Assembly: GCA_013178285.1 (NCBI GenBank)
Contig: JABLXD010000016.1
Location: forward strand, 1 to 41,634
Source: Methanofastidiosum sp.
GTDB lineage: Archaea > Methanobacteriota_B > Thermococci > Methanofastidiosales > Methanofastidiosaceae
Length of the DNA stretch: 41,634 nt
Reading direction: 5' to 3'
The position numbers were made by a program, and so were the translations under genes. Of the stretch, positions 8,807 to 21,073 are shown piece after piece. How positions within the stretch are numbered: position 1 is the stretch's first letter; each line of letters starts with the position of its first letter. The notes beneath the pieces were generated by a model that was not told the DNA's origin, ran no database searches, and saw only the letters and a list, made by a program, of their open reading frames with translations.

Positions 8807-8824
8807 ATAAAATGTTATTTTATT
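8806..8824. terminator. AT-only hairpin at the convergent ubiX/oxidoreductase ends
   Basis: An 8-bp inverted repeat (AATAAAAT, loop GTT, ATTTTATT) overlaps both stop codons of the convergent genes, whose ends are eight bases apart. On the plus strand it is followed by CTTTTT. It could terminate in both directions, but an all-AT stem is weak evidence in an AT-rich genome. Confidence 0.35.
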
Positions 8825-10170
8825 CTTTTTAGTACAAGTTCCGCGCAAATTTGAACTGGATCTATTGTAGAGGATATGGGAGGGCTATAACAGTTTTCGA
8901 TTTTTGCTAATTCTTTAATCTTAATACCTTTCTGAACTGCAAATCCTACTGCAAGTGTTCGGGCAAATATCCCCTCTTCGCCAATAGCTTGAAATCCTAA
9001 TATGTCTCCTTCTTTAGAAGCCAAAATTTTGATAATAACATCCTTATGCCCTGGATAGTATTCTGCCCTTGATTTACCTTTGTATTTCGCTTTCACATAT
9101 TCTACCCCCATTTTGGATAGATCATCTTCTGTTAATCCAAATGCACCTATTTTTAAATCAAAGAAATCCATTATTGCGATATTAATTACGGGTTCCAGTT
9201 CTTGGGTTCCCCCGACTGAATTAATGCCTGCTATTTTCCCCCCTCTAACTGCATTTGTCCCCAGGCTAGAAGAAAAAGATTCTTTAGTGAAATGGTATTT
9301 AACACTTGCACAATCACCACATGCATAAATCTTATCAATCGATGTCTCAAGCTTTGAATTAGTTTTAATCCCCTTCTGTATTTCAAGTCCACAATCTTTG
9401 GCTAGAGAAGTATTTGTGCGGGTCCCAGAAGCCATTATAATAATATCAGATTCAATTAACTCATCATCTACTTTTAATCCCTCTAATTTATCTTCACCAA
9501 CTATATCTATACTAGCTTTGTCACTTATCAGATTTATTTCTTTAGATTTTAAATATTCAACAATTAATTCGCTCATGTCGCTATCGATTTGTTGTCTTAA
9601 TGGCCTAGCCTCTTTAGAAACAATTGTTACATCAAGCCCCCTCTTCTTCAGAGCATAAGCCATTTCTAAGGATATTCTACCAGAAATACAGCCTTTACAA
9701 CCTGCTTTACAGCCCCACCCATATGCATATATAATTGCTTTTTTTGAATTATCAATTTTATTAGATAGTTCTATGGAGTCAGCCATAGTCCTTATGAAAT
9801 AAATCCCTTTAGGGTATTGATAGCCCATCTTATAATTGCAGGGAACTGCTCCGGTTGCAATAATTAAAGAATCATATTCTATTTCAGAGTCATCACTAAA
9901 TATAACTTTTTTAGATTGGGCATCAATTTTTTTGATTTCCTTTTTGAGAAGAAGTTTAATATTTTGTTTTTCATAGAATTCTTTCGGGAAAATTATAAGC
10001 TTATCAAAGTTATCAATATCCCTGGATACTGCATAAGGGAGCCCGCATAAAGAATATTGGGGAAATTTTTGTTTTTCAATTATTGTAATCTCGGCACTTC
10101 TGTCAAATTTTCTTGCTTCAAGAGCTGCTTCTGAACCTGATGCACCCCCTCCAATAATTACAAGTTTCAT
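8815..10170 (-). CDS. CoA-disulfide reductase/NADH oxidase-like flavoprotein with cysteine insertion
   Basis: The 451-residue protein has the pyridine nucleotide-disulfide oxidoreductase fold. It shows an FAD motif (IIGGGASGSEAALEA), a single active-site Cys in SLCGLPY (C42), ATGAVP, the second FAD motif YACGDCASV and a C-terminal dimer domain with NCYSPPISSTIDPVQ. One redox Cys near residue 42 is typical of CoA-disulfide reductase, NADH oxidase or NAD(P)H-elemental-sulfur reductase, which cannot be told apart here. Unusually, the NAD-binding Rossmann turn near residues 150-166 is expanded and holds C154, C158 and C161 (GWGCKAGCKGCISGR). The gene is 67 bases downstream of the NifX-like gene on the same strand and converges on ubiX. 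Confidence 0.85.
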   Translation of the reverse strand: MKLVIIGGGASGSEAALEARKFDRSAEITIIEKQKFPQYSLCGLPYAVSRDIDNFDKLIIFPKEFYEKQNIKLLLKKEIKKIDAQSKKVIFSDDSEIEYDSLIIATGAVPCNYKMGYQYPKGIYFIRTMADSIELSNKIDNSKKAIIYAYGWGCKAGCKGCISGRISLEMAYALKKRGLDVTIVSKEARPLRQQIDSDMSELIVEYLKSKEINLISDKASIDIVGEDKLEGLKVDDELIESDIIIMASGTRTNTSLAKDCGLEIQKGIKTNSKLETSIDKIYACGDCASVKYHFTKESFSSSLGTNAVRGGKIAGINSVGGTQELEPVINIAIMDFFDLKIGAFGLTEDDLSKMGVEYVKAKYKGKSRAEYYPGHKDVIIKILASKEGDILGFQAIGEEGIFARTLAVGFAVQKGIKIKELAKIENCYSPPISSTIDPVQICAELVLKRIK

Positions 10171-15989: not shown

Positions 15990-16625
15990 TTATTCTATAA
16001 AATCGACGATTACTTCTTTGACATCCCAAAGAGTTTCTATTTTTTCTTTAATCTCCTCTTTTATTGAGGCTGCGAATTGATGATTAAGAGGTAAATCAAT
16101 GGTAAGAAGTACTTTCCCATTATCAATTTCAATCTTTTTAATTAAATTTGTTCTAACTACGTCAAGCCCCGTTAATGGATTCATAACTTTCTTCAATCTG
16201 TTATTAACAATTTCTATTGTTGTCGGAACTTTTTCAGCTATAATTCCGTGTTTTTCTTCATAGTTTTGGATAGCTGCCCTCAATCCTTCAACTGCCAATA
16301 CAGAGCAGTGTGCTTTAATTGGAGGTAATCCTCCCAAGGCTTCTGTTGCTTGTTGCCATGTAATTTTCTTTGCTTCTTCAAGTGTCTTACCTTTGGCCAT
16401 GTCTGTAATAATTGACCCTGTCGCTATATTAGATGCACAGCCGTAAGACTCAAACTTAATATCTTCAATAATATTGGATTTTGGATTTACTTTTATATAA
16501 ACTGAAACCATATCGCCGCAAGCTGGACTTCCCTCGGTCGCCTTTCCATCTGGATTTTCTATTTTGCCCACGTTGTGTGGATGGCGAAAATGCTCCAATA
16601 CCTTTTCATTATATGGAAATTTCAT
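15990..16625 (-). CDS. iscU: IscU-type Fe-S scaffold fused to a MIP18-like domain
   Basis: Residues 1-~130 are an IscU/NifU-N scaffold that builds [2Fe-2S] clusters: YNEKVLEHFRHPHNVG, C36 with Asp38 (SPACGDMV), C63 (YGCASN), and H106/C107 in PPIKAHCSVLA. All three cluster cysteines are present. Residues ~135-211 form an extra domain like MIP18/DUF59 (IEIVNNRLKKVMNPLTGLD, then VLLTIDLPLNHQF and VKEVIVDFIE), a fold used in Fe-S targeting by SufT and Cia2. IscU alone is ~130 residues, so this is a fusion joining assembly with delivery. The gene starts directly after the IscS-like gene's stop. The scaffold call is firm; the tail assignment is by pattern. Confidence 0.9.
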   Translation of the reverse strand: MKFPYNEKVLEHFRHPHNVGKIENPDGKATEGSPACGDMVSVYIKVNPKSNIIEDIKFESYGCASNIATGSIITDMAKGKTLEEAKKITWQQATEALGGLPPIKAHCSVLAVEGLRAAIQNYEEKHGIIAEKVPTTIEIVNNRLKKVMNPLTGLDVVRTNLIKKIEIDNGKVLLTIDLPLNHQFAASIKEEIKEKIETLWDVKEVIVDFIE

Positions 16626-17804
16626 TTATTTCTCCTCCTCATTTATTTTACCCAAGGGGCTAATTTTTCTAAGCTCATTCACGACTTCTGAGATATTTTC
16701 AACGATTGAATTAACATCTTCCATGGTATTATATCTTCCAAATGTGAATCGGACCGAACCGTGTGCTCTCTCATGATCACCGCCAATGCCCATTATAACA
16801 TGACTTGCTTCAAGAGATTTACTGAAACATGCAGACCCAGTGCTAACTGAAAATCCTCTCATGTCCAAGTGAAGTGTAATGGATTCACCTTCAACATAAT
16901 GAAATGTAACATTCACATTTTGAGGTATCCTCTTTTCTTTATGTCCATTGAGAGTTGTATCTGGTATTTCTGACAAAACTCTCTTAATAAGATGATTTCG
17001 CATCTCCCCTATTTTTTTATTTTCTTCAGGAGTTACTAACTCTATGGACTTAGCAAATCCAACTGCTCCCGGGATGTTTTCAAGTCCCGCACGTTTATTG
17101 AACTCTTGGAACCCTCCATCCATCCACTTTGATATTTGAGTATTCTTACGAATAAATAGGGCCCCTGTCTCTTTTGGCCCATGTATAGTATGGGCAGACA
17201 AAGTGACCAAATCAATAGGAATTTTTTTTAAATCAATTGGGACTCTTGTGAATGTATGGGTTGCATCGGTGTGGAAAAGCACGCCTTTATTCTTGCATAT
17301 CTCTGATATTTTAGAGATATCTTGCATAGTTCCAATCTCTTGATTTGCATGTTGAATTGAAACAAGTATTGTATCTTTCCTTATCGAGCTCTCAAGTTGG
17401 TCAAGATTTATTAATCCATACTGGTCAACATCAAGATAAGTTACTTCAAATCCTTGCCTTTCAAGACTTTTTGCACTGTTTAGAACGGGGAAATCTTCAA
17501 TTTTGGATACGATTATATGTTTCCCTTTTTTTTCTTTGAGTGACATTGCAACTCCTTTAAGTGCCATATTACTTGATTCAGTGCTGCCTGAAGTAAAGAC
17601 GATTTCTTCAAAATCTGCACCAATGTAATTAGCTATATATCCCCGAGCTTCGTCTAGAGCTTCTCTTGCTTCAATCCCTAAAGAATAACCAAATTCTGAA
17701 GTTGCGACTGCATATACATCAAAATAATATTTTTTCATAGCTTCAAGAACTCTTTCATCAAGTCTTGTGGAGGCAGCGTTGTCCAAATAAACATTTTTTT
17801 CCAT
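16626..17804 (-). CDS. IscS/NifS-like protein lacking the PLP lysine
   Basis: The 392 residues follow cysteine desulfurase end to end: YLDNAASTRLDERVLEAMKK, FTSGSTESSN, FHTDA (Asp180), GESITLHLDMRGFSVSTGSAC and FTFGRYNT. The mobile-loop cysteine is kept (C326). PLP contacts are lost: the Schiff-base Lys206 is Thr (SAHTIHGPK), His104 is Asp (IEDFPVL), Asn155 is Gln (HANQEIG) and Gln183 is His (DATHTF), in E. coli IscS numbering. Bases 17161-17220 confirm ACT for the Thr. An Archaeoglobus IscS lacking this Lys is known and still complexes with IscU. I infer a structural partner or persulfide carrier for the adjacent IscU, using sulfide as source. Calling it an active desulfurase would be wrong. 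Confidence 0.88.
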   Translation of the reverse strand: MEKNVYLDNAASTRLDERVLEAMKKYYFDVYAVATSEFGYSLGIEAREALDEARGYIANYIGADFEEIVFTSGSTESSNMALKGVAMSLKEKKGKHIIVSKIEDFPVLNSAKSLERQGFEVTYLDVDQYGLINLDQLESSIRKDTILVSIQHANQEIGTMQDISKISEICKNKGVLFHTDATHTFTRVPIDLKKIPIDLVTLSAHTIHGPKETGALFIRKNTQISKWMDGGFQEFNKRAGLENIPGAVGFAKSIELVTPEENKKIGEMRNHLIKRVLSEIPDTTLNGHKEKRIPQNVNVTFHYVEGESITLHLDMRGFSVSTGSACFSKSLEASHVIMGIGGDHERAHGSVRFTFGRYNTMEDVNSIVENISEVVNELRKISPLGKINEEEK

Positions 17805-20534: not shown

Positions 20535-20957
20535 TTACTCCATCTTAATGTCCCAAGTCAATTCTGCTGTTAATCCTAGAATAACAGTTATAGGGCAAAA
20601 TTTTGTCATTACTTCTTTTATTATTTCTTCAACTAACTCTTTTTCAAGTTTTCCTTTTATTTTTATATTTGCATGAATTTTTTCAAATATTCGGGGATAG
20701 ATATCTTTTCTAGTTCCTTCAACTACTACATTAAAATACGTATAATCCTTTTGCATTTGTCTCAATAAAATTTGAGTATTGACAGCTATACATGCACCAG
20801 CTGTAGCGAGTAATCCTTCTAAAGGAATGGGATGATTTCCACTGCCCCCAAAAGCTTTTGAAGCTGCAAAAGGGATTTCATGCCCGACGCTATCTACCCC
20901 TAAATATTCCATATCTTTTTGCCAACTTACAGTTGCCCTTAATATATCTTTAGCCAT
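20535..20957 (-). CDS. OsmC-family peroxiredoxin-like protein
   Basis: The 140-residue protein fits the OsmC/Ohr superfamily of thiol-dependent peroxide reductases: RATVSWQKDMEYLG, PLEGLLATAGACIAVNT with the first Cys at the start of a central helix, and MTKFCPITVILGLTAE with the second. Both redox cysteines are therefore present. The strand RIFEKIHANIKIKGKLEKE is typical. ATG 20957 is chosen because GGGTGA lies directly before it; GTG 20966 overlaps that site. The gene has its own TATA-like TTTAAATATAATTA about 30 bases upstream. Its position beside sulfur-relay genes fits a thiol-redox role. Confidence 0.87.
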   Translation of the reverse strand: MAKDILRATVSWQKDMEYLGVDSVGHEIPFAASKAFGGSGNHPIPLEGLLATAGACIAVNTQILLRQMQKDYTYFNVVVEGTRKDIYPRIFEKIHANIKIKGKLEKELVEEIIKEVMTKFCPITVILGLTAELTWDIKME

Positions 20958-21073
20958 ATTATTCACCCAATAATAATTACTTTAATTATATTTAAACATA
21001 TTGAAAGGTAGGATCTAAAGAGTAGCTTATACATTACTCTATCCCACATTTACATATTTTATTAATAAATGAA

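Follow-up and report, generated by a model that had tools for sequence, protein, structure and literature searches.

The window analysed here, a 41,634-nucleotide stretch from a Methanofastidiosum archaeon, carries on its minus strand the gene order TusA-DsrE-IscS*-IscU-MIP18, where IscS* stands for an IscS-like protein without the catalytic lysine (Table 1). The TusA and DsrE genes overlap by 28 nt, a gap of 12 nt separates DsrE from IscS*, and IscS* and IscU abut, an arrangement that bears out the original prediction of TusA and DsrE preceding the IscS-like gene. The IscU with three cluster cysteines and a MIP18-like tail that had been proposed next to it is also present. This fusion contains C36, D38, C63, K104, H106 and C107 together with an LPPIK motif, so that the three cluster cysteines, the aspartate and the LPPxK motif of an IscU scaffold can be recognised and the protein qualifies as one. 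Its AF2 model (pLDDT 90) matched IscU over the first ~125 residues, with A. fulgidus IscU (4eb5_C) as the best PDB match. The tail shows an invariant HQFA where MIP18/SufT proteins carry a conserved cysteine. The DsrE/DsrE2-like protein scored 58 bits against a DsrE2 equivalog cut-off of 210. In the nearest named relative, Candidatus Methanofastidiosum methylothiophilum, IscS* is 93% identical and has the same neighbours. Elsewhere in the window, an OsmC-like gene (20535-20966) lies upstream of the module behind an indolepyruvate oxidoreductase, and a pyridine nucleotide-disulfide oxidoreductase with a dimerisation domain (8815-10170), possibly a CoA-disulfide or persulfide reductase, lies about 6 kb from the module.

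Table 1. Genes, domains and key codons of the IscS* module (positions in the window).
Feature	Position	Strand	Evidence or remark
TusA sulfur carrier, CPxP motif C13	18245..18469	-	Pfam TusA E 2e-20
DsrE/DsrE2-like sulfur carrier, C110	17817..18272	-	Pfam DrsE_2 E 3.7e-32
IscS*, 392 aa	16626..17804	-	Pfam Aminotran_5, pocket residues, AF2 model
Codon of T206, PLP Schiff-base lysine position	17187..17189	-	alignment with E. coli IscS
Codon of K226 (E. coli A228), family-specific invariant lysine	17127..17129	-	84/84 in IscS* family
Codon of the persulfide cysteine in the mobile loop, C326 (C328 in E. coli)	16827..16829	-	invariant 81/81
IscU-MIP18 fusion, 211 aa	15990..16625	-	NifU_N E 5.2e-42 and FeS_assembly_P/MIP18 E 2.3e-13
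IscU (NifU_N) domain of fusion	16248..16613	-	Pfam PF01592
MIP18/DUF59-like tail of fusion	16011..16208	-	Pfam PF01883 E 2.3e-13

The IscS* reading frame gave a strong Pfam Aminotran_5/NifS-IscS match (E 5.5e-74), and its AF2 model (pLDDT 78, with the loop and residues 229-241 weak) matched the IscS structures 1p3w, 3lvj and 4eb5 (Foldseek E 1.7e-37). Sequence and model place the protein in the IscS family of the class V aminotransferase fold. In IscS, the PLP-K206 centre makes a persulfide on the loop cysteine, which is then passed to IscU or TusA. Alignment with E. coli IscS from MG1655, whose numbering is used below, confirmed the predicted replacements K206T, H104D, N155Q and Q183H and the retention of D180; T76, H205 and the mobile-loop cysteine are also kept. 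The number C326, originally given as the E. coli one, turned out to be the protein's own, the E. coli equivalent being C328. With 442 bits against the 531-bit equivalog cut-off of NifS (TIGR03402), and scores below the IscS cut-offs too, IscS* lacks K206, the H104/N155/Q183 set and the equivalog-level score of an active IscS/NifS cysteine desulfurase, and shares with such enzymes C328 and D180.

IscS* loci were sought in 84,980 species genomes and 80 were recovered, in archaea (Methanosarcinaceae, Methanobacteriaceae and Altiarchaeales genomes) as well as in Chloroflexota, Syntrophales, other deltaproteobacterial MAGs, Atribacteria, Actinobacteria and others. Alignment of these homologues extended the predicted substitutions to the whole family: D104, Q155 and H183, like D180 and C328, were invariant in 81/81 sequences, and position 206 was threonine in 69 and leucine in 12 of the 81. 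Eleven fixed positions, including those of N35 (GNP motif), H104, N155 and Q183, separate the family from 88 lysine-bearing IscS. The partners are equally constrained. TusA C13 was invariant in the family (70/70; 71/71 gaps aside), as were DsrE C110 (67/67; 66/66 gaps aside) and IscU C36, D38, C63 and C107 (77/77), and nearly all IscU proteins of the family carry the MIP18 tail, judged by length and alignment. The order TusA-DsrE-IscS*-IscU was found in most loci, and in Anaerolineae the genes are rearranged and still linked. No fifth gene was generally conserved at the family loci, neither one that would load TusA or DsrE nor a particular target gene. The loss of catalytic residues might by itself suggest a decaying, functionless paralogue, but the replacements are invariant across 81 sequences from several phyla, the operon is conserved and the partners are intact, which leaves this explanation a negligible probability.

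Several other genes were observed close to the family loci. In Dehalococcoidales and one Altiarchaeales genome (L023, L027 and L026) a canonical lysine-bearing IscSU pair is found 1-3 kb away from the IscS* module. Nine loci (L090:2758-3060 and eight other Chloroflexota) have a small 4Fe-4S ferredoxin-like gene nearby, whose product might supply electrons for reducing persulfide. Additionally, six loci (L079:1663-2463, L023, L027, L067, L074 and L075) contain a gene that we read as a Thi4-like thiazole synthase; archaeal Thi4 can use sulfide.

The original prediction had named a lysine shifted into the active site as evidence against a PLP-free protein. K211 was rejected as a replacement of K206 because its position varies (K 42, R 36, H 2, A 1). 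K226 is invariant in the family (84/84) and absent from other IscS, the lysine-bearing proteins having P, S, N or A there; it could in principle take the place of K206 and is the chief point of doubt. If K226 or another residue held PLP, IscS* would still be a PLP enzyme, with changed chemistry. T76, H205 and, in most sequences, S203 are kept, and these we take to be contacts on the phosphate side; moreover, PLP still appears in the published drawing of the lysine-less A. fulgidus IscS structure (PMC9769115 Fig. 1). Nevertheless, the ring-stacking H104 is gone along with N155 and Q183, each of them exchanged for another invariant residue, T243 is mostly lost, and the A. fulgidus family has the same gene linkage with proline in place of K226, so a relocated lysine seems very improbable to us. 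A different use of the pocket is conceivable, as D104, D180, H183 and H205, all invariant or nearly so, would stand beside the loop cysteine and might form a new site, for instance for Fe2+ or a sulfane-sulfur donor. We consider this rather doubtful; were it true, IscS* would bring iron or persulfide to IscU by a chemistry new among IscS.

The host genome (97% complete) contains ten Pfam Aminotran_5 matches including IscS*, and no other cysteine desulfurase was found among them. The remaining nine, examined as candidates for a second intact IscS, which would have spoken against the prediction, are SepCysS, SHMT and aminotransferases. SepCysS makes cysteine in this genome, by a route that uses sulfide. 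Likewise, a NifU_N search of the host genome returned one protein, IscU-MIP18, and no second IscU; the genome also encodes one SufB/D-core protein (SufB-type scaffold). No lysine-bearing IscS was detected in ten sampled Methanofastidiosum genomes, where any IscS present is of the IscS* type; lysine-bearing IscS does occur in other families of the same order. One Methanofastidiosum genome contains a more distant IscS/SufS-like gene (G009:C62:8672-9829; L119), which scored 176 bits and is interrupted by a single internal TAA. In the genus survey IscS*, DsrE and IscU occurred together in five genomes, IscS* and DsrE without IscU in two, and all three were absent from the same three genomes (87%, 93% and 68% complete). 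The genes thus act as one unit that can be dispensed with, the presence of the SMS system being the presumed reason. With three genomes living without the module and a SufB-type scaffold in the host, SMS may be what cluster assembly in general depends on, and this favours an alternative in which sulfur flows in reverse or the product is not general, the module being a sulfur hub for one target (thiolation or a special cofactor) with IscU and its MIP18 tail as the delivery arm. However, IscU retains all cluster residues, no target gene is conserved beside the module and IscS* has no evident means to mobilise sulfur, which makes such a hub improbable.

A pattern emerged from the gene neighbourhoods of lysine-less IscS in general. 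When a link was defined as TusA and/or DsrE at most 1.4 kb away and on the same strand as iscS, it was present for 109/119 lysine-less genes versus 0/89 lysine-bearing ones (T/L type 76/85, D or A. fulgidus type 31/32, A type 2/2), and the feeding by sulfur carriers suggested in the original prediction is strengthened by this family-wide linkage. Three genes with Q206 were counted apart from the 119: one is linked by the rule, one lies at the end of its stretch, and one has a TusA match that falls outside the rule because its reading frame overlaps. The ten unlinked genes comprise three at contig ends, one with TusA 2 kb away, five from Methanococcoides and one of the D type; one Methanococcoides genome that was checked has a 71% identical DsrE elsewhere, unlinked. 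Kinship is disregarded in the nominal Fisher p of 6e-48, which is not to be taken as significance, since the tree offers only three independent contrasts. About 2.6 of these three phylogenetically independent contrasts agree in the direction of the linkage and none opposes it, three pairs being too few for significance to be within reach.

The A. fulgidus type, for which 32 examples were collected, is marked by D206, A183 and N205, and its carrier cysteines are also invariant (TusA 28/28, DsrE 16/16, gaps aside). A. fulgidus itself has TusA and DsrE ahead of one iscS copy and DsrE ahead of the copy known from the crystal structures; a further DsrE-like gene was seen downstream of an iscSU copy on the same strand (L292:3187-3585). 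In Chloroflexota there is a third lysine-less type, carrying A206 or Q206, which also has TusA/DsrE (L224, L247 and L248), in the order IscS(A206)-IscU-DsrE-TusA at L224. An OsmC-like gene similar in appearance to the one in the window lies near this A206-type module (L224:25-390). In trees calculated after removal of the trait columns, T-type and A. fulgidus-type sequences each formed one clade. Forcing these two together was not rejected (AU p 0.288; 0.381 with IscU concatenated). The A/Q type was nested among lysine-bearing IscS. Grouping it with the A. fulgidus type was rejected (AU p 0.0355), and with that a single origin of all lysine-less types. The lysine was therefore lost at least twice, perhaps three times, with the same carriers each time.

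TusA/DsrE linkage of lysine-less IscS is a new result, the loss of the lysine being already known from A. fulgidus IscS and M. acetivorans IscS1. Our literature search, which lay mostly outside subscription journals, found no report of the linkage, of the invariant replacement residues or of the MIP18 fusion; the founding paper of MIS, the minimal archaeal ISC system, may mention the linkage. The sulfur supply of lysine-less IscS has been an open question since the A. fulgidus structures, and the source of Fe-S sulfur is unsettled in many anaerobes. In this regard, the linkage suggests that lysine-less IscS obtains sulfur from TusA/DsrE carriers instead of cysteine, a testable answer in which assembly would be fed by carrier-bound persulfide. 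The rule spans archaea and several bacterial phyla, and Methanofastidiosum provides organisms with the IscS* module as their only IscSU.

We propose, with a probability of roughly 0.6, that the module is dedicated to Fe-S assembly and that IscS* acts in it as a persulfide relay and docking platform which does not desulfurate cysteine. TusA and/or DsrE would be loaded with sulfane sulfur that arises elsewhere, sulfide or some other inorganic compound being its source, and would pass it to the mobile-loop C326 of IscS*, from which it would reach the active-site cysteines of IscU, where the cluster would form. A relay is the likely remaining role because K206 and three pocket residues are gone and the loop cysteine and the IscU site are kept. 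The direct basis of the proposal is the linkage, the pattern of residue loss and retention, the conservation, the lack of another desulfurase in the genome and the joint presence or absence of the genes; E. coli IscS, for which complexes with TusA and IscU have been solved (3lvj, 3lvl), also counts in its favour. The absence of PLP catalysis, the direction of sulfur flow, a direct transfer from TusA/DsrE to IscS* and a role of the MIP18 tail in handing the cluster on are what we infer from these data. Sulfide is a plausible first sulfur source, since Methanofastidiosum reportedly reduces methylated thiols with release of sulfide and since SepCysS uses it. Against a relay, the E. coli direction of flow is conceivable, with IscS* passing sulfur on to TusA, provided that IscS* had another sulfur input.

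The lineages with the IscS* module are known as anaerobes, and this counts for another alternative, put forward earlier for A. fulgidus IscS, in which the loop cysteine would be a temporary cluster ligand on IscU, free sulfide the sulfur source, and TusA/DsrE would do something else. The A. fulgidus precedent points the same way: its IscS is inactive as a desulfurase and, in complex with IscU, provides Cys321 as a ligand of the [2Fe-2S] cluster (PMC7585200, PMC9769115); in M. maripaludis, moreover, the sulfur source is sulfide (PMC7585200). Such a ligand-only role is a real if minor possibility, but it does not account for the linkage of TusA/DsrE, with their invariant cysteines, to lysine-less IscS as opposed to the lysine-bearing kind. 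What is known of the ligand role in A. fulgidus is also compatible with the persulfide relay that we favour.

Among known systems, the closest solved structure to IscS* by sequence is A. fulgidus IscS (PDB 4eb5, 4eb7 and 4hvk; E 7e-104), for which lysine loss and inactivity have been published (PMC7585200). The two share the lost Schiff-base lysine, the kept loop cysteine, the IscU partner and TusA/DsrE upstream. However, the A. fulgidus type combines its D206, A183 and N205 with H104 and often N155, whereas IscS* has T206, D104, Q155, H183 and H205, and A. fulgidus IscU (156 aa) has no MIP18 tail. By signature and separate clade, IscS* falls outside the A. fulgidus IscS2-type, with joint origin not rejected. 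M. acetivorans IscS1-IscU1 (MA0808-MA0807) belongs by signature to the same family as IscS*, with an STGSACFS loop and a 24 kDa IscU with LPPIK; its IscS1 lacks PLP-binding residues, a function like that of A. fulgidus IscS was suggested for it, and its neighbours were described only as four genes of unknown function (PMC7585200). Produced without IscU1, IscS1 ends up in inclusion bodies (PMC7585200). In our data, Methanosarcina loci carry the TusA-DsrE-IscS*-IscU module. M. acetivorans has two more IscSU sets with conserved PLP residues (PMC7585200), whereas the Methanofastidiosum host has none.

MIS (MisS-MisU) resembles the IscS* module in having IscS and IscU homologues without other ISC parts, but it is described with a cysteine desulfurase (PMC12192291), whereas the IscS* module has no catalytic lysine and adds TusA, DsrE and the MIP18 fusion; the residues of IscS* argue against a MisS-like working desulfurase. 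The SMS system (SmsB-SmsC) runs on sulfide without a desulfurase (PMC12192291), and a SufB/D-core protein is encoded in the host genome. Its scaffold is unrelated to the IscS* module and SMS has neither IscS nor TusA. Lastly, E. coli ISC with TusA has the IscS fold in common with the module, and both its IscS-TusA and IscS-IscU complexes are structurally known. There IscS is a PLP enzyme and sulfur goes from IscS to TusA, a direction that would be reversed in the IscS* module.
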